This document shows, piece by piece, positions 20,833-37,631 of a DNA stretch of 64,000 nucleotides; position 1 is the stretch's first letter; each line of letters starts with the position of its first letter. Below the pieces are notes generated by a model that saw only the letters and a list, made by a program, of their open reading frames with translations, made no database searches and was not told where the DNA came from. Position numbers and translations under genes: made by a program. This DNA is from Halichondria panicea (lineage: Eukaryota; Porifera; Demospongiae; Suberitida; Halichondriidae): the NCBI RefSeq assembly GCF_963675165.1, contig NC_087391.1, positions 124,001-188,000 of the forward strand. The letters are read 5' to 3'.

Positions 20833-23693
20833 TTAGTTTTCTTGAACAGTCTCTAGAGCCGTGGTCTTTGAGGTTTGGCCCATAACTAGTAGTTGCTTGA
20901 CTGGTGTGAGCTGTAGACTCTCACCATCTAGACTAGCCAACTGCACGAGTGGGAAGGGAGGGGGTAAACGTAGTGACATCACTACATACCATAATGAAAG
21001 ATAGCAAGTAGTTAGACGACACATAATATAGAGAAAGTGTAGATCTAATCCACAGAAATAGGTGAAGTCAAGAATGGCTAAACTAGGAATGTGGGTAAGC
21101 ACATTTATAGGCACACGGAGGAAACAAAGAGGAAACGAACGTGTGTTGAGTAGTGTTCAACGTCCAGTGCGAGTTGTAACCTTATCTTGTTGTCATCAGT
21201 CATGCCCTCACTTGGTGATGGAGCACTAGACTTCCGGTAAGCGTTCAGTTTCAATAAACTGTCCTCTGTTCGTTTCACATTCAACAGTAGCTCTGACGTC
21301 ACTCGATAGTAACTACAGAGAGGCAGTGTAAATGATAGCTCAAGGAAAGTTAGCACACCAACTTACTTCTCTGTGACAAGCTCCACTACGCTTTTAGTCC
21401 ACTCTTTCTTGTATTTAGATGGGAAATCAGACAGCCTGACCTCAAGGGGTCGTAGAACCATGGCAACATAAGTGGACGGCTTCGAGGGTACCTGCATCAA
21501 AACAAAGGGAATGATAGCGAAAACTTTGGGGAAATCGAAGGAAATTGAAAACGCAAATTAAAATATTATCAAAAACATGACATAACGATATCATACGGGG
21601 ATGATACCTGTCTCCCCGTCCGTCTAAACAAGCGAGGAATGGTTTGTGCCGACTCTAGACTCTTACTGCATTCACTGGCAATCTCCTCCACCACTAGGGT
21701 GGCCAATCGTGGTACCAAGGAGTCCAGTTGCTGTCTAGCATCCTCCAGTCCCTCTGCAGCAAACACATACACACATTACAATACTTAAATAGTGCTTTAC
21801 CTTGGACCATACTCTCTGCTGAGCTGGGGATGTGGGGGTGGGCCATCTTGGCAAGGTTGGGGCTCTGAATAATTGTATGGAGGAATACATAGTGGATTAG
21901 TATGTTGCCATAGAAACAGGTACACGCTCGATAAAACCAGCGGGAAGTCAGGCAAAGGAATGTAATAGATATCAGCTGTACATGCTTTCAATATCATTAT
22001 AATCTAACTATGGCGGCGCACGATCAACTATTTAAGCAGCAGACAAATTACAACAATCCTTTACGCCTAGCATCTTACAGCCCCCCACAACAGCTAACAT
22101 AGGGAGGAATACGTAGTAGATTAGTATGTGGGTATATGTGCCATGGAAACAGGTACAAGAGACAGCAGGAAGTTAGGCAAAGGATGCTTTCACTATCAAT
22201 ATCTATAATTATGGTTGTTGCCGTATGATTATACTATTTAAGCAACAGCAACATTCCCCATTCGTTTTAAAATAAAAACTGAGCCTACAGCCCCCCACAA
22301 AAGCTAACAGCAGTGAAATCAATGAGGATGTGGAGAGTCCTTCTGATAAGTGTGCTGATGACAGTACTGTTGTCTGTTAGCAGCAAAACTCTACCAGTTG
22401 CAGAAGACAAGACCCAAGGTTCTATTGATCTTGAGCCAACACTGCAGCCAACACCAAGCCACTCGTTCAGTGCACAACTTGCAAACTATCCAATAACTGC
22501 AAACTTCAATAGAAGTGCTAAAAGGCTGCTGACAGAGTACAACCGAATGCAAAAGGATCGCTTGCTGCATATTGCAGCTTACTTTACAGACACTCTTGAA
22601 GGACTAACTCAAGAACTGGCTTGTATGCAAGTTGAGCAGTACATCACTGACCAGTTGCAGCCAAGGACAGAGGGGCACACGTGCACACCGACCTTCAGCT
22701 GTGACTACGATCAAGCTAGATTCCCAGCAACTCTCATCAAAGTTACCTGCCCTAAAAAGAAGTGCATTGATGTGTACCAGTACAGAGGTGCTTGCCTACC
22801 CAGAAACTCTGATTTGACGTATTTGCGATTCAAAGAAGAAGATCGAGTAGAACAAAAAGAAGCAAATATCGGCTCAGGAGACGGTCTATATCCGGTGGTC
22901 CGGACAGGAAAGTGGTATCATCACACGGTGACTCTAACCAGAGACTGCTACTGCTCAGATGCAAAATAGTAGCTATCTCTAGCATATATGATAGTCATCA
23001 CTTAGTGCTCACATGTATAACCACCTGTATAGATAGACTTTTTTAATTTATGATCATCATTATCAGTTTATAAAATCAATTCAACACTTCAATATTGCAT
23101 AATTATACCACCCTAATGTATCGAAAGAGAATTTAAATTATAGCTGTCTGTACATTCTAAACAGGCATTGCTAACATTAAAGTCGAGATGCATTGCCGAA
23201 TGATGCACTATTCACTAAATAATCATTCTTCACATGCATGCTTGGCAGAACTAGTCACTTGGAGTGGCCGTATTAATATTAATTGGGTCAGCTTGTTGCA
23301 GGTAATTAAGTGGATTCTATATAGTAATATAAGCACATGCAATCATATGTTTCGCAGAGAAGGTGTTTTCATTGAAGCATTTTCACTGTGTACACAGTAA
23401 AGGTTAGCTACAAGAAGCTGTATACATCTCTGCTCACAAGTACACACTGCTGGTGTGTGTTGCTTATTAGGCTGATGACCTTCTGTGCAGGGAATGTTAT
23501 GTTTTCAATTCACCGAACTACCAAAGTTGTGCTTGCTACTCTGACCCAGACCTCTAGTCTCTCTGTAGTGTGCATGAGCATATTGCATAGCAGGAAACAT
23601 TCACTTTGTAGTGCTCTACAGTACACCCACACCCACACACACACACCCACACACACACACACACACACTCACCCATGCATACACACACCCGCA

Positions 23694-23750
<57 letters not shown>

Positions 23751-23861
23751 CCATGCATACACACACCCACGCACACACACACTCACCCATGCATACACAC
23801 ACCCACGCACACACACCCACACACCCACACACACACCCACACACCCACCCACACACACACA

Positions 23862-23950
<89 letters not shown>

Positions 23951-26900
23951 CAATGTACAGGCTTAACTTAACAAGATGCACATGTAAAATAATTATGGCA
24001 AATTCATTAGAGTGGACTTGAGTGAGAGAGGGATTACACTATATGATCAATATGACATAGTCCACATGCAGCACATATAAAGGTACTTTTAATTCCAGCA
24101 CATGTACTATTAATAGACAACTTGCCACCTACACTATCATCTGAGATGACGACATTCGCGTATATCTCATGGGGAACGAACTCTACACAAACAAACAGTG
24201 ACTCTAGCTCTGATAGCCATCACAAAAACAGAAACACACGTACCAAAACAGTGAGCAAACGACACAGAAATTTGCGATAAAGGAAAGAGATAGTTTAAAT
24301 CGGACGGGCCCCAATGTGAAGGTAGAGCATTACACGCAAAACAATGATAGCACAACTTTGCTGACGAGTGGATGATGAAGACGACTTAACTTTCAGTACA
24401 TGTGTACGTATATAAAGACGTTAACGAATGTTCTAGTACAAATCAAATCAAATGTGTTATTCAACTAGAACAATCATCATGCAATCAAAGAACGTGCTCT
24501 CACTCTCACTACTACTAGCTATAGTAATGGCTGCCACCATCAGAGCATGCCCCACCCCCTCATGTAAACGAACCACAAACTGTGAACTATATGACCACCT
24601 CTCTAACACCAGTCGCTCAGCACCAGCAGACATCATTACCACTGTAACCCTCGGAGATATCGTCAACCCAGCCTTCACTACCGACATACCTGGCTTCCTG
24701 GACTTCATATTCAACAGACTAGACTACGGCCTGGATAAAGTTGGAAACTTTACACAAGATTGTCTACTTGACAATCCACCAGAGGAGCAGTGCAAATACA
24801 AGATCATAACAGTATCACGCAGCCACAACATGACATGTGACTTTGAGTATAATTGCGATTACAACAGAAACCGTATTCCCCAGTACATATGGAAAGCCAA
24901 CTGCCTGCCCGCTGCAACTGGGATGAGATCAGTACCAGTCTACTATAAAGTGCCCGTGTTGGAGATGAGAGATAACGAGGGAGACTGCGACCCTTTCGCA
25001 GCAGGAGCCAGTATGAGAGGCTGGACTTGGAGACAACTAGAAGTGCCAGTAGCGTGTACTTGCATGGACACAAACAGTGCATAGCTTTAAGCAGTCAAGG
25101 AATGTATGGAATGTATTTATCTATATAGGTAGCCCAGGCCAGTCTGTATCTAGTAGAGCATATATGTATATAGGTTATAGATGATTATGTTTCATGTGCA
25201 CTGGTTGCATTCTGTAATGAAAGACACCACTTTCAATCAATCAATCAGTTAAAATTTAGAAGGGTCATACAATATGTTTTACAACCTCTCGAGGTTGCTC
25301 CCTGTTACACAGAAATATAAATTAATGGACGGTTACATTATGAGGGGACGTTCAAGTGCTGACTTAAATGAGGAATAATCTTTATCAAGTACTAATTGTG
25401 GCGTAGTGGTAAAAAATGTCAGGCAATAGGCGGAAGGTCGAGTCACGATAATGTACTTTTCACTAATAGCAAATGACGATTGTTTATTTCATTGCATCGA
25501 GTGGTTAACCTGCATCACATGGTGAGATTCCCGTGGTGACCAGAGTGCTGGGGCCTAGTGTGTCAAAGGTTAGTCTCACCTTCTGCAGCGAGTCCGGGGC
25601 GCCTTGGAAGGCTTACCTGTACTGTACTACCCTGGGTGGTCCCTCGTTATAAGCTTAGCCACGTTCTCTTAGATTAAGATCTGTGATTTCAGTGCAAACT
25701 TCTTTTCAGAATCTTTCGTAGCATCACGCCTAGGAAACGAAAGCTAATAGCTCTACAGGCTTTTAGCCACATTCTCTTGTATAACTTATTTGCGAACTAC
25801 AACTAGCTACAGCTGCTTAATGGCTAGTTTTACTAGTGCTAGTGAAAGCTATTGCAGTCTGATGATTATACTAAGCAAGAGTGTCCAGCTACTGAGGAGC
25901 ATCACCTGACCTACGTGGAGTTTACAATTACATTATAAGTAAAAGCATATTTTTCACGCACACCCACCAAGTTAAAAACAAAAACACTAACAAACACTAA
26001 ACACATGCATGCAAACAACGTACATGCACTCCGACCCCCTAACCAAATTCCTTAGCCAGTGGTAATATCATGAACGGAGTCTCACATGATCTACTATCTC
26101 TAGCTACTAGCGGCAACAGTACAGCTGCATAATAATAATTCGTGTCCCCTATCTGAGGCAATACAGCGAGGGGAGATATCACAAAGTGAGACATAATAAA
26201 CAACAAATCACCTTTTACTAGTGATAGCCATAAGCAGGTGACAGAAATGCCAGAGCAAGCTATTATTGTGCAGAATACAAAAGGGAAGTCACTTCCTGAT
26301 GGAGATTAGAGCATGCATCATCAGAATTGAAACGCAATTTACTACAATATAGTATATATAGTAGTTTCAGTACTTGACCCATAGCGCGAATCAGATAATT
26401 TAATCCTCAAAAATCCCAACACATAGTCACCGCATGCTCTTCAATGCAACATCACTAACTATAAAAGCAAGGCTCGAGCACTTTACATCATAACCAACTA
26501 ACAGTCAGAGCAAAGAAAGAATACCATCCTACCATCAAGAATACAACTACTCCTGCGATAAAAGGTATGCAACAATTAAGACAGTCAGCCATTACATTAT
26601 CATCTGCATGTATACTTATACTGTACATTATTAACTAGCTGCACAATTCATATATACGTAATCTCCTCCTCCGTGTACACAGATGCATCAATCAACCACT
26701 CTTCTCCTCCTTCTGACAATGGCAGTCCTCCAATTGACAGTAACATGTCCTCTACCCACTGAAACATGCCCCTCCCTCCCACAAGACAGTGTCAGCTACG
26801 CAGAGTATCTGCAACACCTCGGCACTTTGAATGATTACTCTCTTCACACCAACATCAGTCATACCGATGGGGCCTTCTACCCACATACTGTAAGCAGTGT

Positions 26901-29900
26901 TGTCAAGAATACAGGCAGTCTGAGAAACATCAACGCAGGCTGCTCAGGTAGAGACTTCAACTTTAGCAAAGTGAGGGACGGGGATACAGGCACTACCATC
27001 CCCCTCACTTGCCCCCTCACCTTCCTCTGCGACTACAACCCTCAGAGAGTGCCTGCACACATCTTCCATGCTCGCTGCATCTCAAGCTCACTCAGTGATG
27101 GAAGTGAATGCCGAGAGGTGTTCTACCCTGTTGTTACTATGACGACAGAGTCATGTGACCCACTAAACGACAACGCAACATGGAAACTGACAACAGAACA
27201 AGTGGCGGTGTCGTGCGCACATGTAGCCGCCCAATAACAAGGGACGACAGAACACCTAACGATAGGCAGCCTATACTTGACATCAGTTCACTTAATTAAC
27301 ATCTATAGTATAGTATCACTCATTTCAAGCTATGTACAATAGTCTGCTTGCGGACATTTTTATAGTTGCTCTATACCAATCATTTGCATTCTCAATCAGA
27401 TATCATTATTATTATAAACCTGTGTTGAAAGTTGCTCCAGGTCTGCAATGACGAGTAGAGTGTCCTGTAGTGAGAGTGGGCGAGTGAGACTCCTCCCATC
27501 AGCCGAGGGCTGTACCTATAGGGGGACGGGGGAAAATGATCAATAATTTACTGGAAACATAAAAAATAAATAAATTGCAAGGTCATAGAGAGAATTAATG
27601 AGCATAGGCAGCAAGACTGCATGGAAGACAAGGAAATTAGTATAGTTGTGGAATTTGACCTTCTGCAGCTCCACTAGGACAATGTATTGTCCGGAAGCAA
27701 GCAGCCTTGTGATATTCGTAGTGGAAGTGATCTATTGTTGGTATTAATAGATACTAACATCCCCAGCCTAACATGGGCATCACACATGAGCACTCAGTTA
27801 AAGGGAAAGCTATCATCATCACGACTATCTGACCAGCTAACTACTCAACAGTTAGGGAATCGATCACGTGCTGCTCGGGACTCTTCAGTATGACATGAGA
27901 CTACAAACCTTTGAACATTCTGTACAAAGTCCCTCAAGCCATACAGCTGTCCGCATGAGTACCTGGGGGAGGAGAACATACAAGGTCATACTAGCATAAT
28001 GTCATGTGATGTACATGGGCGTACAGTACGGACCTGGAGAGATAGCTTCCAGAAGCGATGTGTGAGTGCCGGGATGAGCACGTCCGGGCTCCAGCACTGT
28101 TGCCATGCCAACCACACTCTACCAAACACCTCCAGTTGGAAGGGATGATCCTCAGAGGCCTCTGCTCTCACTAGTGGGAAGGATAGACTGCTCTCAACTG
28201 ATCCAGCTATGTCCTGGAACCTGGGAATAGAGTGTCTGGTATTAGAATGGAGTACCAGTGGTATTTAATTATGCTGTAGGACCCAACTCTCAAACAGCTA
28301 TAACTTTTGCTACAATGATATAATTTAGATTTTCTGAAAGCTTAAGAGAAGCTCTTTCAACTGGTATGTTGTTTAACACTAAAATGTGTAGGGCAAGGAT
28401 CTACCGTATTTGGAAATAGACAGGCAAGCTCCATTTTGCCATGAAGGAGTTGTAGGTGGGATGTGCCCTCAGGCGTTTGATGGAGCTCTCTGTGGAGCAG
28501 TGCTTCTCAAAGGAGCTCACAAAATCCATCGTAGTCGTGTAGTTCTGTAGTGTTGATCACATGACATGAATCATGACATCACCAGATAATGCTCTAAGAG
28601 TCGAGTTCACAGCTCTCAATGTGATAAATTATTACTTAATAAACTTTCCGAAAATCCAAAAATAATTATTATCAAAACTAAATCGATGGGAGCTGTAGTT
28701 AGTACGCTCATAATGTTGGGGACTTAGCAATGTGGTGCCTGCCATGGCTACATGAATGAGCTGACCTGATGGAAGGTGTCGGGATTTCCTGGAGCAAAGA
28801 TAACGGAAATCTTGCGCTCGATGAGAGATACCATTTCTGGCCAGACAGAGTTGACGAGGAAATCGAATCCCTTGACAGAATTATCAGAGGAACCCCCACT
28901 CGTTATACTGACGAGTAGTGAACAGGCCTTGGGTACAAAGGTCAGGATGTCAGCGTACAGTCCGCCCAGACCTTGAGCGTGAGAGATAAGATTCTTAGTA
29001 GTCACCAACTACAAGGGAGAGAATCAGATAATGTATGTTAATTGTTGCTTGCACTGAAGTAGCTCAATTACACCGCATTGTACTTCAGAGTGAGAAGTAC
29101 AAGAGGTTAGAGTACAATAGGTTAGAGTACAAGAGGTTAGAGTACAAGAGGTTAGAGTACAGCGCGAGCTTCCTAGATACAATCCAACCTTGTCTATGTA
29201 AGGGTGTATTATGGTGGTCCTGAACATTGCCTCCGCTGCCTCGTGGCGTCCAATCAGATTGTAGGTCTGTAGACAGCTGATGAGAGCCCCTCTATCCTCC
29301 CGGGCTAACCCCGCCCTAAATGAAGACTCTAACCACAACTGTACACTCTGAGTGATGCCAGATATACGCTGTGAAGGGGAGGGGATTATTTCCTTCAATC
29401 AGAAAGCAATCACTGATCTAAACACATCATCAGATAGGCCTTTCAAAGGGCTACAAAATGCATCCTTTAAATGGGAAAACGCACAATCCTAATTCATGTT
29501 ATGGGCAGTCAAAGATGGCTACCAAAACAGGCCCATTTCCAGAGACCATAGAGACCGTGTGTACGTATGGTGATGCATACCTCATTGGAGCTCTCAATAA
29601 GAGGATGGTTGGTAACTAGGGACGCATTGTACTGCAGTTTGTTGAACTCCATAGCAACTCTCTCCATGACAACCGGCTCCCAGGCCGCACCTCTGTGAGA
29701 TCAATGAAACAGAATGCACATCAGATTATCAGCCCTCAAAAAGTAGCTCCTGAAATATCACAAACTTACGTTTGAGGTAGTGCCATGATTCCTGAAGTGT
29801 CCTTGTCCGAGTGTATGTGCAGTAATCGCTCCAGCCGCTCCATCGACTCTAGTACCACTATCAATCGAGTTAGCGTGTTCTGAAGAAGAAAGTGATATTA

Positions 29901-31092
29901 TAAAACGAGTGATTGTTATATATAGCTGACAGTCCAAGGCCGAAAAATTACAAATCATGGCCCCAACAACATTTTGGAGTTAAACACATCATTTGAAAGT
30001 CTCTTAGAATTATTACTAAGCTTACAGAAACCATCTATAAATTTATGGCTGTTAACTCCTCGATCCCCCTCCCCCGTTTAATATAGTTTGGAGACTCTTT
30101 CAGCTGCTATAACTTTAATTCTGTTGATTCAATTTTAACGATTTTATGATTTTATGAAAGCTTAGAAAGAGACCTTTCAAATGGTATCATCAATGTTCAT
30201 ATTTGGGAGATGACAGAATTTGCCAATTTCAGCCAAATACCATGGATTATAGCCCATGGTCCAAGGCCGAAAAATGGCAAATTAAGGCCCCAATCAAATT
30301 TTAGATTTAAACACATCATTTGAAAGATTTCTTTCTAAGCTTTCAGAAAATCATAAAATGTTTGACATTAGATCAATGATACTCAAGTTATGGCAGCTGA
30401 AAGATGTTCAACTACACCCCCCCCCCCCCTCCGTTTTATCAATGGTTTTCAGGGACTCTTTCAGCTGCCATAACTTGAATTCCATGTTCAACGATTTTAT
30501 GATTTATGAAAGCTTAAAGAGATACCTTTCAAATAATATCATCGGCAATTTCGACCAAAATAATACTATGAATAATTCCTAACAGTCCGTGTACCTTCTG
30601 TTCCGATATCTCCGTCTTGGTGTTCATCTTGCTCTGAGCAGCATCAATGGCCTCCGTCATAGCACACTTGATCTCCTGCAATCAATTGTGTGTTAACGAT
30701 GATATAAATGGCAATCAACTTAACGCACTTTGATCTCCGTCTGAAGCTGCTTGAGAGGAGACATGAGACTGCCAATCGACTTGTCAATGCCAGCCTATAA
30801 TTATTATTGTGGGAATACAAGTAAAACAATAAAATCAACGAATAATTATGATAAATTATAATATAGTTCGTACCAGATTAGCGGAGAGGTTAACGAAGTC
30901 TGCATAGTCCTGGTTGATGAGCTCCACCATGGCACTCTTGAGCGTCTTGAAGTAGCCGTGCAACTCCTCGCGTAGACCCTCCATCGTGACTCGCCTTCGA
31001 CAACGCGCCACAAACTCATCCACTGCAAAATCTTTGGCCAGTAGCTCCTCAGGAGAGAAGCACATCTGCTCTTGGGGTTCTGGGAGGGCCAT
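20833..31092 (-). CDS. COG2: COG2, conserved oligomeric Golgi complex subunit 2
   Basis: Sixteen exons sum to 2,103 bases and 700 residues (human 738): about 30874-31092, 30729-30794, 30595-30675, 29770-29879, 29581-29692, 29189-29368, 28766-29008, 28405-28544, 28034-28220, 27909-27962, 27420-27515, 21801-21864, 21608-21753, 21367-21491, 21141-21312 and 20833-20940. Tell-tale blocks are KTAMVELINQDYADFVNLS-type sequence at the N-terminus, GFDFLVNSVWPEM, SIKRLRAHPTYNSF, IPRLFRRTGR and MTDDNKIRLQLALDVEHY near the end. COG2 is a lobe A subunit of the tether that receives vesicles in intra-Golgi retrograde traffic. Frame and phase carry across all junctions, including the 5.55-kb intron 11 (21865-27419), which contains three + strand genes. 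Several introns carry palindromic repeats. Confidence 0.95.
21879..22310. repeat. Tandem duplication of the upstream region of the first IL-17-like gene
   Basis: Two diverged copies, about 21879-22100 and 22103-22310, both start GGAGGAATAC(A/G)TAGT, contain a CTATTTAAGCA box and end CAGCCCCCCACAAAGCTAACA-like. The second copy adjoins the coding start at 22322 and would serve as its promoter and 5' UTR; the first has no gene after it. Confidence 0.75.
22235..22242 (+). promoter_or_regulatory. Putative TATA-like box of IL-17-like gene 1
   Basis: TATTTAAG lies 80 bases before the chosen ATG, which would put the transcription start near 22265. The same box is present in the duplicated upstream copy at about 22028. 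Confidence 0.4.
22322..22969 (+). CDS. Secreted cystine-rich protein, IL-17-like (gene 1)
   Basis: A single open exon encodes 215 residues. A signal peptide (MRMWRVLLISVLMTVLLSVS, cut near residue 20) is followed by a low-complexity and helical segment. A cystine-rich domain begins at C127 with CDYDQARFPATLIKV, then C143, C148 and C158, and ends in TLTRDCYC with C209 and C211. Interleukin-17 family cytokines share W-x2-D-x2-R-x-P-x2-(I/V), a downstream Cys pair and a terminal V-x-CxC strand; all these spacings can be recognised here, though the tryptophan is replaced by the C-D-Y of this local family. By analogy it would be a secreted dimeric ligand. It lies on the + strand inside intron 11 of COG2. 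The start at 22322 was chosen over an ATG two codons on. This is an inference from motif layout only; another cystine-knot family remains possible. Confidence 0.6.
   Translation: MRMWRVLLISVLMTVLLSVSSKTLPVAEDKTQGSIDLEPTLQPTPSHSFSAQLANYPITANFNRSAKRLLTEYNRMQKDRLLHIAAYFTDTLEGLTQELACMQVEQYITDQLQPRTEGHTCTPTFSCDYDQARFPATLIKVTCPKKKCIDVYQYRGACLPRNSDLTYLRFKEEDRVEQKEANIGSGDGLYPVVRTGKWYHHTVTLTRDCYCSDAK
22970..24405. other. Spacer between IL-17-like genes 1 and 2
   Basis: About 1.4 kb within COG2 intron 11. Apart from the CA microsatellite described separately, it is A/T-rich and shows no coding exon with homology. Open frames here are products of the CA repeat. Confidence 0.6.
23625..23946. repeat. Long interrupted (CA)n microsatellite
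   Basis: About 320 bases are CA with regular CCCA, CTCACCCATGCATA and CGCA interruptions that repeat as larger blocks, ending in a pure CA run of about 70 bases. It separates IL-17-like genes 1 and 2. Confidence 0.97.
24409..24417 (+). promoter_or_regulatory. TATA box of IL-17-like gene 2
   Basis: TATATAAAG is a good TATA consensus, 62-70 bases before the preferred ATG at 24479 and about 40 before an upstream ATG at 24452. A start site near 24440 would make the 24479 ATG the main one. Confidence 0.55.
24479..25084 (+). CDS. Secreted cystine-rich protein, IL-17-like (gene 2)
   Basis: One exon encodes 201 residues, with a signal peptide (MQSKNVLSLSLLLAIVMAAT). The C-terminal half is the best IL-17 match of the three: CDYNRNRIPQYIWKANC (C126 to C142) reads like the human DPNRYP-x2-IWEAKC block, then YYKVPVLEMR resembles VPIQQEILVLRR, C170 follows, and WRQLEVPVACTCM (C193, C195) resembles FxLEKxxVxVGCTCV. 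The order and the CxC end are as in the IL-17 fold. N-glycosylation sites (NTS, NFT, NMT) fit an extracellular protein. It is preceded by a strong TATA box. An ATG at 24452 would add nine residues before the signal peptide, which is less likely. The function as a cytokine is inferred; no receptor gene is in the window. Confidence 0.68.
   Translation: MQSKNVLSLSLLLAIVMAATIRACPTPSCKRTTNCELYDHLSNTSRSAPADIITTVTLGDIVNPAFTTDIPGFLDFIFNRLDYGLDKVGNFTQDCLLDNPPEEQCKYKIITVSRSHNMTCDFEYNCDYNRNRIPQYIWKANCLPAATGMRSVPVYYKVPVLEMRDNEGDCDPFAAGASMRGWTWRQLEVPVACTCMDTNSA
25085..26459. other. Spacer between IL-17-like genes 2 and 3
   Basis: About 1.4 kb inside COG2 intron 11 with no coding exon. At 25390-25460 there is a tRNA-like stretch (A box TGGCGTAGTGGT, degenerate B box GGTCGAGTC) that may be the head of a SINE. 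A short direct repeat, TAGCCAC(G/A)TTCTCTT, occurs near 25657 and 25769. Confidence 0.4.
26460..26467 (+). promoter_or_regulatory. TATA box of IL-17-like gene 3
   Basis: TATAAAAG is a consensus box. A start site near 26490 would give a 5' UTR exon to 26564 (AAAG|GTATGC) and an intron to 26682 that ends CACAG directly before the ATG. Confidence 0.6.
26683..27237 (+). CDS. Secreted cystine-rich protein, IL-17-like (gene 3)
   Basis: An open coding exon of 184 residues starts exactly at a 3' splice site, with a 5' UTR exon upstream. The signal peptide is MHQSTTLLLLLTMAVLQLTV. The core CDYNPQRVPAHIFHARC (C116-C132) is shared with genes 1 and 2, followed by C143, C158 and a last strand EQVAVSC (C178). 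Where the IL-17 family and its two neighbours have CxC, this copy has C-A-H, so one cysteine of the terminal pair is lost. N-glycosylation sites occur at NIS and NAT. It probably arose with genes 1 and 2 from a local duplication, though the pre-domain parts share little. The same caution applies to the family name. Confidence 0.6.
   Translation: MHQSTTLLLLLTMAVLQLTVTCPLPTETCPSLPQDSVSYAEYLQHLGTLNDYSLHTNISHTDGAFYPHTVSSVVKNTGSLRNINAGCSGRDFNFSKVRDGDTGTTIPLTCPLTFLCDYNPQRVPAHIFHARCISSSLSDGSECREVFYPVVTMTTESCDPLNDNATWKLTTEQVAVSCAHVAAQ
28283..28405. repeat. Palindromic dispersed repeat, half copy
   Basis: Only a left arm (CAGCTATAACTTTTGCTAC, then TTTCTGAAAGCTTAAGA) is present, in a COG2 intron just after the exon 28034-28220. 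Confidence 0.55.
29098..29160. repeat. 15-bp tandem repeat
   Basis: About four copies of a GGTTAGAGTACAAGA unit lie in a COG2 intron near a 5' splice site. Confidence 0.85.
29935..30590. repeat. Cluster of palindromic dispersed repeats in a COG2 intron
   Basis: One full copy (about 30095-30415, both arms and centre) is flanked by a right-arm fragment (29935-30070) and a left-arm fragment (30430-30580). All lie in the COG2 intron 29880-30594. Poly-C runs (about 10 bases) mark the junctions at 30415-30428. Confidence 0.75.
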
Positions 31093-31313
31093 ACCAGCAC
31101 CTCCTCGTGGCTAGGCTAGCTGCTGTGAGGGTGTTTGTGTGTATGTGTTGTAGCTCAGAAAAGAAGGCGTGGCTTGTAAGCTTGCAGACACGATAGAAGG
31201 CGTGGCTCGTACAGTTTCCTGTGAAGATCTACATGCAACCTTGCATGTCAACTGTAAACAAACAAGCCGCTCTAGTTTAGCCAGCCTACCCGTACCCATA
31301 GCTAGCTCTAGTC
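31093..31313. promoter_or_regulatory. Divergent promoter, COG2 / FRMD8
   Basis: These 221 bases lie between opposed start codons. The region holds two copies of AAGGCGTGGCT (near 31164 and 31197), possible GC-box/KLF-type sites. No TATA box is seen. Confidence 0.4.
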
Positions 31314-34985: not shown

Positions 34986-37474
34986 TTATAACAGAATTCT
35001 GTTGTAGTCAGAGTACCAATCTCTCTCAAATGTTTTGACAAGGTCGGCTTGTATATTAGCATCATTGCCATGGTTACCAGTGGTCTGATTGACTATGCAG
35101 CTGACTCCGCCCGTGTACAGGAAGTAGTCACCTGACCAGTTGGACGTACCTACGGTGGAATGGTTACATAGTGACGAGTGTGGGAGGGGACTAGTGTACA
35201 TAGTGCCAGTGTGGGAGCGAGACTAGTGCAAGTGCACTCACTGATATAAGCAGCCTTGTCGGAAACCATGTACTTGTGGTTGACTCGTGTGAAGGGGATG
35301 CTTCGATCAGGAAGGGGCGGGACTATAAACAGACTCTGGGGGGGGGGGGGTATAACTCATACACTGAAATCCAAATTCTAAATGATCCTAACCCTCAATT
35401 GAGGAGATTACAGAGGGTTTATTACTGCATGTACATAGTAAACACTGATTGTGGTGGAGTTGTTGTGATGCTCACTGTCTCAATGATGCCCTGATAAGGT
35501 CCAGTGCCGTTGCTAGCAGACAAACTCTGGAGGAACCGAACCATATCCTTGGAGGTGTGGTTCCAATACGACCCCATGACCCTGACGTGTACTCCACGAT
35601 CGTACGCAGCTGATCGGAGAGCATCATCAAATGTGGGCCAGAAACTGTACAATTGAAGGACAGTGATATTGTATTAATCAACCTAATTGGATAGTGATAG
35701 ACACACACGTTCTATCCCTGTAGTACTATACACTAGAGGAGGTTAACTACTTATTCCTTTTGGGAAGGTGATGTTTTATTATGCGATATCAAGGGTGTAT
35801 ACACTCTTGGCGATATCCTAACGAGTATAATTATAATTCTAGAGTCACGCTAGATTAGGCTCTTACTATTTTGGCCGGCCGTATATGACAGCAGGGAAAT
35901 AGTCCATGACTGCTATGTACACAAACTTGTCAGCCGTGTTGATGACTGTGAGGAGAGCGTCCAGGTCCTGTGTCCGCTGGTGAGCACAGAAAGAGGGCGG
36001 AGACGACTGTGGAGGTAGTGTGTGGGGGGTAGTGTGTAGGGGGTAGTGTGTGGGGGGTAGTGTGTGGGGATAGGGTGTAGGGGGTAGTGTGTGGGGGGTA
36101 GTGTGTGGGGATAGGGTGTAGGGGGTAGTGTGTGGGGGTAGTGTGTGGGGGTAGTGTGTGGGGGGTAGGGGTAGTGTGTGGGGGGTAGTGTGTGGGGGTA
36201 CTCACTTACAATTTGTATACAGTAACATGTATACGTATTAATCAAGACAATAATGATCACTGCTCACAATTCAATTAATGCTCTGAAACTAAAGAGATTG
36301 AAAGTCCATCGTTCTAAACACACACAGTGCACTAAGTGACATGTGCATGCAGAGTGTACTCACTGCCCAGTAGATGTCCACAGGGGCAGTGTTATTGATA
36401 GAGATGCTAGCTGGGTCCTCCATATTGAACATTGCAGTGTAGTCGGCTGACCAGGTGGGCGGGATCACTGCCCCAGGGCTCGACAAGTACCAGTAGATAT
36501 TAAACAACTTCTGCGCATCTTGGGCCAAACACTCGCAATCAATACCCAGTAGACCAAGCTCCTTCACCTACAAGAACAACTATGTAATACCTGAGTACAC
36601 TCACTTTAGCAGTATGAGTAGTGGCGCTATGGGGAAGAAAGACGAAAGATTGGAGGATAATGGGAAAAGATCTAGAGGGTGAGATATTGGGGAGACAGGG
36701 GATAATTGGCCGGGTTAGATCTATACCTGTGTGAGGGAGCGCCAGTCCATGTTAGCGCTGCCCACATAGAAGTGCTTCTTGTCTGCTACCCACAGTTTAG
36801 TGTGAAGGATACCAGCTCCTTCCAGTTTAGTGAAGTTGATGTTCTGCACATCAGCTAGTTTCTCCTTGGTCAGGTCCAGCGTGTCTAGATCAGGGTACAC
36901 TTCACTGGGGAAGTTCTGAACAATTCTCAACTTGACCCCTCGCTTGGAGAGACCTGCTAACTCATTGTACACCATCCAGCCCTGTGGAAATGTAATGAGA
37001 GCTGATACAAGAAAATTGCAACTGAGGAGCTTTTAAAATCCTTAATAGAGCCAAACCCTGTATATTTTACGCTAACATTCATGGGATGCCTAGTTATTCT
37101 ACTGTGGTTGGGAAGGTTATTGTAGTGGTAAGTCTAATCACTCCATGCATGCACCTGCTTGTCAGTGACGTCAGTGATGTTGCCATGTCCCCTCAGGGTC
37201 CAATAGTAGGAGGCAATGTCCACCGTTGCCGTGGCAGCACCCAATAGCTGCATCCATGCCTTGTACGTGGAGAGGTGCAGTTGAGAGTTCGGACGATATG
37301 ACAAGTGTTCCGGAATACTCTCCACTATAGCCAGGCTGTCAAATAAATACACACCCTCTTCAACAATCATATTGATGAATTAGCTTACTTGCACGACTTA
37401 TTGCAGTCTTGAGCAGCCTTGGCTGTCAGAAATGCGGCTACAAATGTGAGTAGTACAGCTATTGTCTTCTGCAT
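34986..37474 (-). CDS. PLD3: PLD3-type phospholipase D family 5' exonuclease
   Basis: Eight exons (37389-37474, 37155-37335, 36727-36981, 36364-36567, 35867-36006, 35476-35644, 35242-35335, 34986-35149) give 430 residues, with all phases consistent. The family is clear from LSTYKAWMQLLGAA, the first HKD motif HTKLWVADKKHFYVGSANMD and the last block STSNWSGDYFLYTGG. PLD3 and PLD4 are lysosomal 5'-3' exonucleases for single-stranded DNA and RNA and also make bis(monoacylglycero)phosphate. Two oddities: the N-terminus is a plain signal peptide (MQKTIAVLLTFVAAF) rather than a cytosolic tail plus anchor, and the second HKD reads NHKYMVSD where relatives have NHNKYMV, so the His-x-Lys spacing is one residue short. 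It is head-to-head with an RNase T2 cluster. Confidence 0.92.
36007..36200. repeat. Minisatellite in PLD3 intron 4
   Basis: About 190 bases are made of GGGGGTAGTGTGT units of 11-13 bp with GATAGGGTGTA variants. Confidence 0.9.
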
Positions 37475-37631
37475 CCTATAGATGGCAATGGTGAAAGCAA
37501 CACAATGGTTTATTGTGACAGTTGGTAGATATAGATAAGTGATAATAATATAATTGCATTTTCACATAGTACCGTACTTTCAGTGGAGTGAAATACAAGC
37601 TATTCAGCATTGTTAAGAAGAGCACAAAGCC
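37475..37631. promoter_or_regulatory. Upstream region of PLD3, divergent with small ORF and RNase T2 cluster
   Basis: A/T-rich and 157 bases long, up to the small + strand ORF at 37632. No clear core promoter motif is seen. Confidence 0.25.

Follow-up and report, generated by a model that had tools for sequence, protein, structure and literature searches.

An IL-17-like gene cluster inside a COG2 intron of a demosponge genome

Invertebrate members of the IL-17 family typically carry 6-8 cysteines and a CPW motif (PMC8353272). A 2015 survey, in its excerpted text, gives IL-17 as absent from Amphimedon, Cnidaria and Placozoa (PMC4517768). A 2021 survey, likewise as excerpted, finds it in two of three cnidarians and none in Amphimedon, and names the cnidarians as the most ancient phylum with IL-17; it mentions an Amphimedon IL-17 Pfam entry that was not located in the genome (PMC8353272). 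For the SEFIR domain, one sponge paper gives one sequence in its text and two in its table (PMC12909245), SEFIR has been counted in ctenophores (PMC11797021), and SEFIR is combined with Death in a placozoan protein (PMC6321704). Among the matches listed from the open-licence literature (without preprints or subscription papers), no excerpt describes a sponge IL-17 gene family. Here we examine a 64,000-nucleotide stretch of contig NC_087391.1 from Halichondria panicea (positions 124,001 to 188,000, the window), in which three plus-strand genes, called genes 1, 2 and 3, lie within one intron of the minus-strand gene COG2. These genes very probably encode demosponge IL-17 family ligands, an assignment that is less secure for gene 1 than for the other two; the proteins are predicted to be secreted, to form dimers and to signal through SEFIR receptors. 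IL-17 is thus a known family, found here in a phylum where the excerpted surveys left it absent or unconfirmed.

Gene 2 and the IL-17 fold

Gene 2 (24479..25084, plus strand) has a single exon and encodes a protein of 201 aa, assigned to the IL-17 family by its Pfam score, its fold matches and its relatives (P0006-P0015). Pfam IL17 (PF06083, curated cut-off 24 bits) scores 38.9 bits by hmmscan, with the domain at residues 120-196 (24836..25066). An earlier note on this DNA, written from the letters of the window, had traced the IL-17 layout along this protein, and the elements that it named (RIPQYIWKANC, VPVLEMR, a lone Cys170 and LEVPVACTCM) are all present. The domain holds six cysteines (120, 126, 142, 170, 193 and 195), which are invariant in all 10 members of the gene 2 group alignment (A6). 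The equivalent of the CPW motif is CDF in gene 2 and CGF, CGW or CSW in most relatives; in P0014 it is CPW itself. The six-cysteine pattern and C-x-W/F motif of the group fall within what is expected of invertebrate IL-17s, namely 6-8 domain cysteines with a CPW-like motif.

Two predicted models of gene 2 match the folds of IL-17A and IL-17F. One fold search with a model (VIA) returned IL-17 in 49 of 50 rows, row 50 being PTTH, and another returned IL-17 in all 50 rows. In Foldseek, rows 1-18 are IL-17 and rows 19-20 PTTH, both at probability 1.00, after which the values are 0.15 or lower. Profile searches can be made with a wider alignment of gene 2, its relatives and its paralogues (A2), in which 16 of 16 members match Pfam IL17 at E<=0.1. 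Against PDB sequences, 25 of the 26 entries listed for this profile are IL-17A, IL-17F or IL-25 (best E 2e-7), and the remaining one is PTTH (E 3e-4). The profile of the gene 2 group alone lists IL-17 in 25 of 25 entries, at E values of only 0.0068-0.12, and the single sequence of gene 2 has no match among the PDB sequences up to E 10. According to the earlier note, a different fold, or another secreted family in first place, would count against the IL-17 identity of the cluster; IL-17 came first in folds and in profiles, which supports that identity.

Genes 1 and 3 and relatives elsewhere

The open frames starting at 22322, 24479 and 26683 encode 215, 201 and 184 aa, and the N-termini of the three proteins are hydrophobic as judged by eye. 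Common to all three is the stretch C-D-Y-(D/N)-x2-R-x-P-x2-(I/L), in the forms CDYDQARFPATL, CDYNRNRIPQYI and CDYNPQRVPAHI. The earlier note had described this opening together with a closing V-x-C strand in each protein. The opening stands throughout. The closing strand stands for gene 2 (LEVPVACTCM), whereas gene 1 ends TLTRDCYC, without V-x-C, and gene 3 ends VSCAH, with one Cys only.

Gene 3 (26683..27237, plus strand) is an IL-17-like gene with a single coding exon, in which the final C-x-C lacks its second Cys. Its IL-17 domain (residues 109-179, at 27007..27219) straddles the Pfam cut-off, with 22.9 bits by hmmscan and a passing 24.2 bits in the six-frame genome search. Comparison of gene 3 with the gene 2 group by hhalign gives E 1e-10 and a probability of 97%.

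Gene 1 (22322..22969, plus strand, single exon) encodes a divergent IL-17-like, predicted secreted protein, for which the IL-17 assignment is less secure. Pfam IL17 reaches 14.7 bits, under the cut-off, and a PDB search with the gene 1 group profile finds no IL-17, the sole match being PYL10 at the chance level of E 1.3. Gene 1 alone might thus be a separate secreted family that has in common with IL-17 only the C-D-Y-x3-R-x-P stretch; we judge this unlikely, but it is the alternative to be taken most seriously. Consistent with it, IL17 is also under the cut-off in all five metagenome matches of gene 1 (P0016-P0020, 14.7-20.6 bits), with matches mostly in the first half of the profile, and the link between the gene 1 and gene 2 groups (hhalign E 1.8e-5, probability 78%) extends over 32 columns only. 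Nevertheless, IL17 is the best Pfam family for gene 1 and for all its relatives, the gene sits alongside the other two of the cluster, and it has both the C-x4-C and the final C-x-C spacing. In NCBIfam, three of four proteins have no match and gene 1 has one at chance level. A second copy of gene 1 was not found in the assembly, where the other match (E 0.93) carries stops.

Relatives can be found in a metagenome protein collection, of which the best 8000 candidates were scored. A search with eight IL-17-like proteins of the assembly (A1) gave 15 proteins among these candidates: P0006 is gene 2 with the single change Y38F, and the nine proteins P0007-P0015 are 29-61% identical over the aligned part, with PF06083 present. 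The wider alignment A2 gave 17, including P0016, identical to gene 1 but for a single change; P0017-P0020 are 56-74% identical relatives of gene 1, whose Cys spacings, taken from alignment rows with gaps, are left aside here. The longest contig listed is 9730 bases for P0007 and for P0020 alike, so the relatives of gene 1 and of gene 2 may lie together there as well. The metagenome relatives presumably come from sponges.

Contig C3 of the same assembly carries four more IL-17-like genes in a row (c3a-c3d). Pfam IL17 gives 18.0-22.1 bits for the three examined by hmmscan, and the genome search scores all four at 21.1-25.3 bits. Their group aligns with the gene 2 group by hhalign at E 3.7e-6, probability 87%. 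Pairwise dN/dS among the four is 0.23-0.58 in six comparisons, and thus the genes appear to be held by selection, if loosely; the last Cys is lost in two of them, c3b and c3c.

Two candidates were rejected. The frame c3e (L012:4325-5119) resembles the C3 genes by eye, but Pfam gives no match and hhalign to A6 gives E 0.25; a weak IL17 match on C12 (E 0.125) contains stops. As a gene in its own right, c3e (L012:4322-5119) is Cys-rich, looks secreted and adjoins the C3 IL-17-like genes, with two decayed relatives lying between them (C3:1466.4-1466.9 kb and 1469.6-1470.1 kb). Also beside this cluster is an open frame with HEFGHALGLEHEH, a metalloprotease motif by eye (L011:3277-4035), and a shorter relative is found at 380-856.

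Candidate signalling partners and the genomic setting

A search for SEFIR-domain receptors, proposed along with the first reading of the cluster, located SEFIR-type genes in the genome, with Pfam SEFIR above cut-off at C4, C9 and C16. Used as a query, a SEFIR tail from C9 finds a tandem set of four on that contig and a further place on C10, making five SEFIR-type receptor tails. One of the five is above the Pfam cut-off (25.5 bits), that on C10 is under it (18.6 bits), and the remaining tails are 29-34% identical to the first C9 tail. By eye, a membrane segment precedes the tail in the C9 and C10 frames; the gene on C10 consists of a single frame of 680 residues, which opens with a hydrophobic stretch. 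An fn3 domain is above cut-off in one C9 receptor-like frame (L070:6064-7302, 38.6 bits), and Pfam scans of the C10 frame and of two L014 stretches found none. Seven metagenome proteins related to the first tail (P0021-P0027) all match SEFIR, five of them above cut-off; searched against the PDB, the receptor tails and the C10 frame reached no human IL-17R. Frames adjoining SEFIR contain CARD and Death domains on C4 (L013), and a Death domain on C16 (L015). In each place the SEFIR and Death (CARD) frames are probably exons of one gene, and SEFIR beside Death, with CARD on C4, may be an ancient adaptor combination. Rel-homology exons are present on C6.

In the working that we propose, each protein of the cluster would be secreted, and its C-terminal Cys-rich domain would fold as IL-17 and dimerise. 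The dimer would bridge single-pass receptors of the C9/C10 kind (ectodomain, stalk, membrane segment and SEFIR tail). Contact between SEFIR domains would then bring in the SEFIR proteins encoded on C4 and C16 next to Death domains (with a CARD on C4), and the signal, serving as an alarm at a barrier or against microbes, would pass to the Rel/NF-kB gene of contig C6. The proteins themselves would then be putative cytokines.

An alternative is that the proteins belong to a wider cystine-knot group near PTTH and Trunk and act as developmental hormones via a non-SEFIR receptor: PTTH is the only other family among the 26 PDB sequences listed for the A2 profile, and it follows directly upon IL-17 in Foldseek and occupies row 50 of the other fold search. 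Membership of that group is nonetheless improbable, as IL-17 is ahead of PTTH in the profile search and in both fold searches that return it, PTTH is nowhere the best match, nothing but IL-17 is listed for the profile of the gene 2 group, the Pfam family named is IL17, and candidate receptors with SEFIR-type tails are present in the assembly.

Silicatein is a marker of siliceous sponges. In silicatein-type exons on C6 (L049) and C2 (L050), Ser replaces the catalytic Cys (CGSSYAF and CGASYAF), and the best PDB match is silicatein alpha at 41.8 bits, the next entry scoring 33.8; when pieces are joined by hand, the scores are 134.8 bits for silicatein alpha and 107.3 for the best natural cathepsin. 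On sequence grounds these exons point to a siliceous demosponge, and they give substance to the earlier note's 'sponge-grade animal'. That the window is contaminating animal DNA rather than sponge is very hard to credit, given that it lies within a 5.98 Mb contig and that C2 and C6 of the same assembly (8.6 and 7.6 Mb) carry the silicatein-type exons. Tandem papain-family genes occupy seven places on C8 (493-521 kb; 493345-521186), each above 110 bits, and at L028 the active-site stretch of a papain-family sequence reads GSS instead of GSC.

The intron is defined by its donor, CAACACAG/GTTTAT, and its acceptor, TTATTCAG/AGCCCC, which place it at 21865..27419 (GT...AG read on the minus strand). 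With COG2_C exons on either side, the splice sites bear out the earlier placement of three plus-strand genes in a single COG2 intron. The minus-strand open frame with the COG2 exon upstream (27989..28264) covers COG2_C positions 12-76 (63.2 bits), and that with the exon downstream (21572..21775) covers positions 155-205 (38.6 bits). Further minus-strand Pfam matches are COG2_C positions 249-300 at 21108-21362 and COG2_N at 30859-31110; in the same scan, the minus-strand open reading frames at 29027-29398 and 28751-29008 had no match. The location of the three genes may simply reflect a compact genome. Of 1000 Markov-1 resamples of the intron, 5 contained an ATG frame of at least 184 aa, so one frame of this length could conceivably arise by chance; the relatives elsewhere that share the cysteines are stronger evidence for genes than frame length.

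Other features of the intron include a TATA-like element 70 nt before the gene 2 ATG (24409..24415, plus strand), from a pattern match only, and, by eye, a candidate 5' untranslated intron of gene 3 (26565..26682, plus strand), GT...AG directly before the ATG. A long, imperfect CA-rich repeat (23570-23993) separates genes 1 and 2. Upstream of gene 1 (21870-22320), short phrases recur by eye (ggaggaatac..gattagtatgt and cagccccccaca..agctaaca); a repeat search with a minimum of 25 reported the CA-rich family only and not these phrases. Outside the intron, exons resembling a phospholipase D family protein can be seen by eye on the minus strand at 34989-37561.

Implications and comparison with known systems

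If a demosponge has IL-17 ligands together with SEFIR receptors and SEFIR-Death genes, this would likely move the origin of IL-17 to before the sponge split. More tentatively, and with rather more room to be wrong than right, the full set of IL-17 ligand, receptor and adaptor may predate that split, followed by diversification of the ligands and of the SEFIR receptors on the sponge side, with SEFIR-Death/CARD adaptors in place of Act1; IL-17 signalling would then have begun as a branch of MyD88-like, death-fold signalling. These ligand, receptor and adaptor candidates provide concrete genes for asking whether IL-17 serves as a microbial alarm in an animal that has neither gut epithelium nor neurons.

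The sponge proteins resemble vertebrate IL-17A and IL-17F in the predicted fold of the C-terminal domain and in its C-terminal position behind a hydrophobic leader, and alignment with IL-17F shows W-x-Y .. NR-x-P .. A-x-C and C-T-C in common. They differ in having two extra cysteines (120 and 126), a long N-terminal region and a single coding exon; gene 2, unlike gene 1, lacks the Cys in the second half of C-x4-C. With the IL-17s of molluscs, echinoderms and cnidarians they share at least 6 domain cysteines and a CPW-like motif (PMC8353272, as excerpted), as well as expanded, clustered genes. Mussel IL-17 genes most often have 2 exons, according to the same excerpt, whereas the genes described here have one coding exon and occur in a demosponge.

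Silkworm PTTH (PDB 5aoq) has a related cystine-knot fold and is the next best match; however, it scores below IL-17 and acts via Torso, a receptor kinase. The candidate receptor genes on C9 and C10 recall IL-17 receptors in their apparent layout of hydrophobic start, ectodomain, membrane segment and SEFIR-type tail, with fn3 in one; they differ in the divergence of the tails, most of which score too low for Pfam's threshold. On C4 and C16, the SEFIR genes that adjoin Death and CARD domains resemble the excerpted placozoan SEFIR-Death protein (PMC6321704) rather than Act1, which has been termed mammal-specific (PMC3087547, in the part available).
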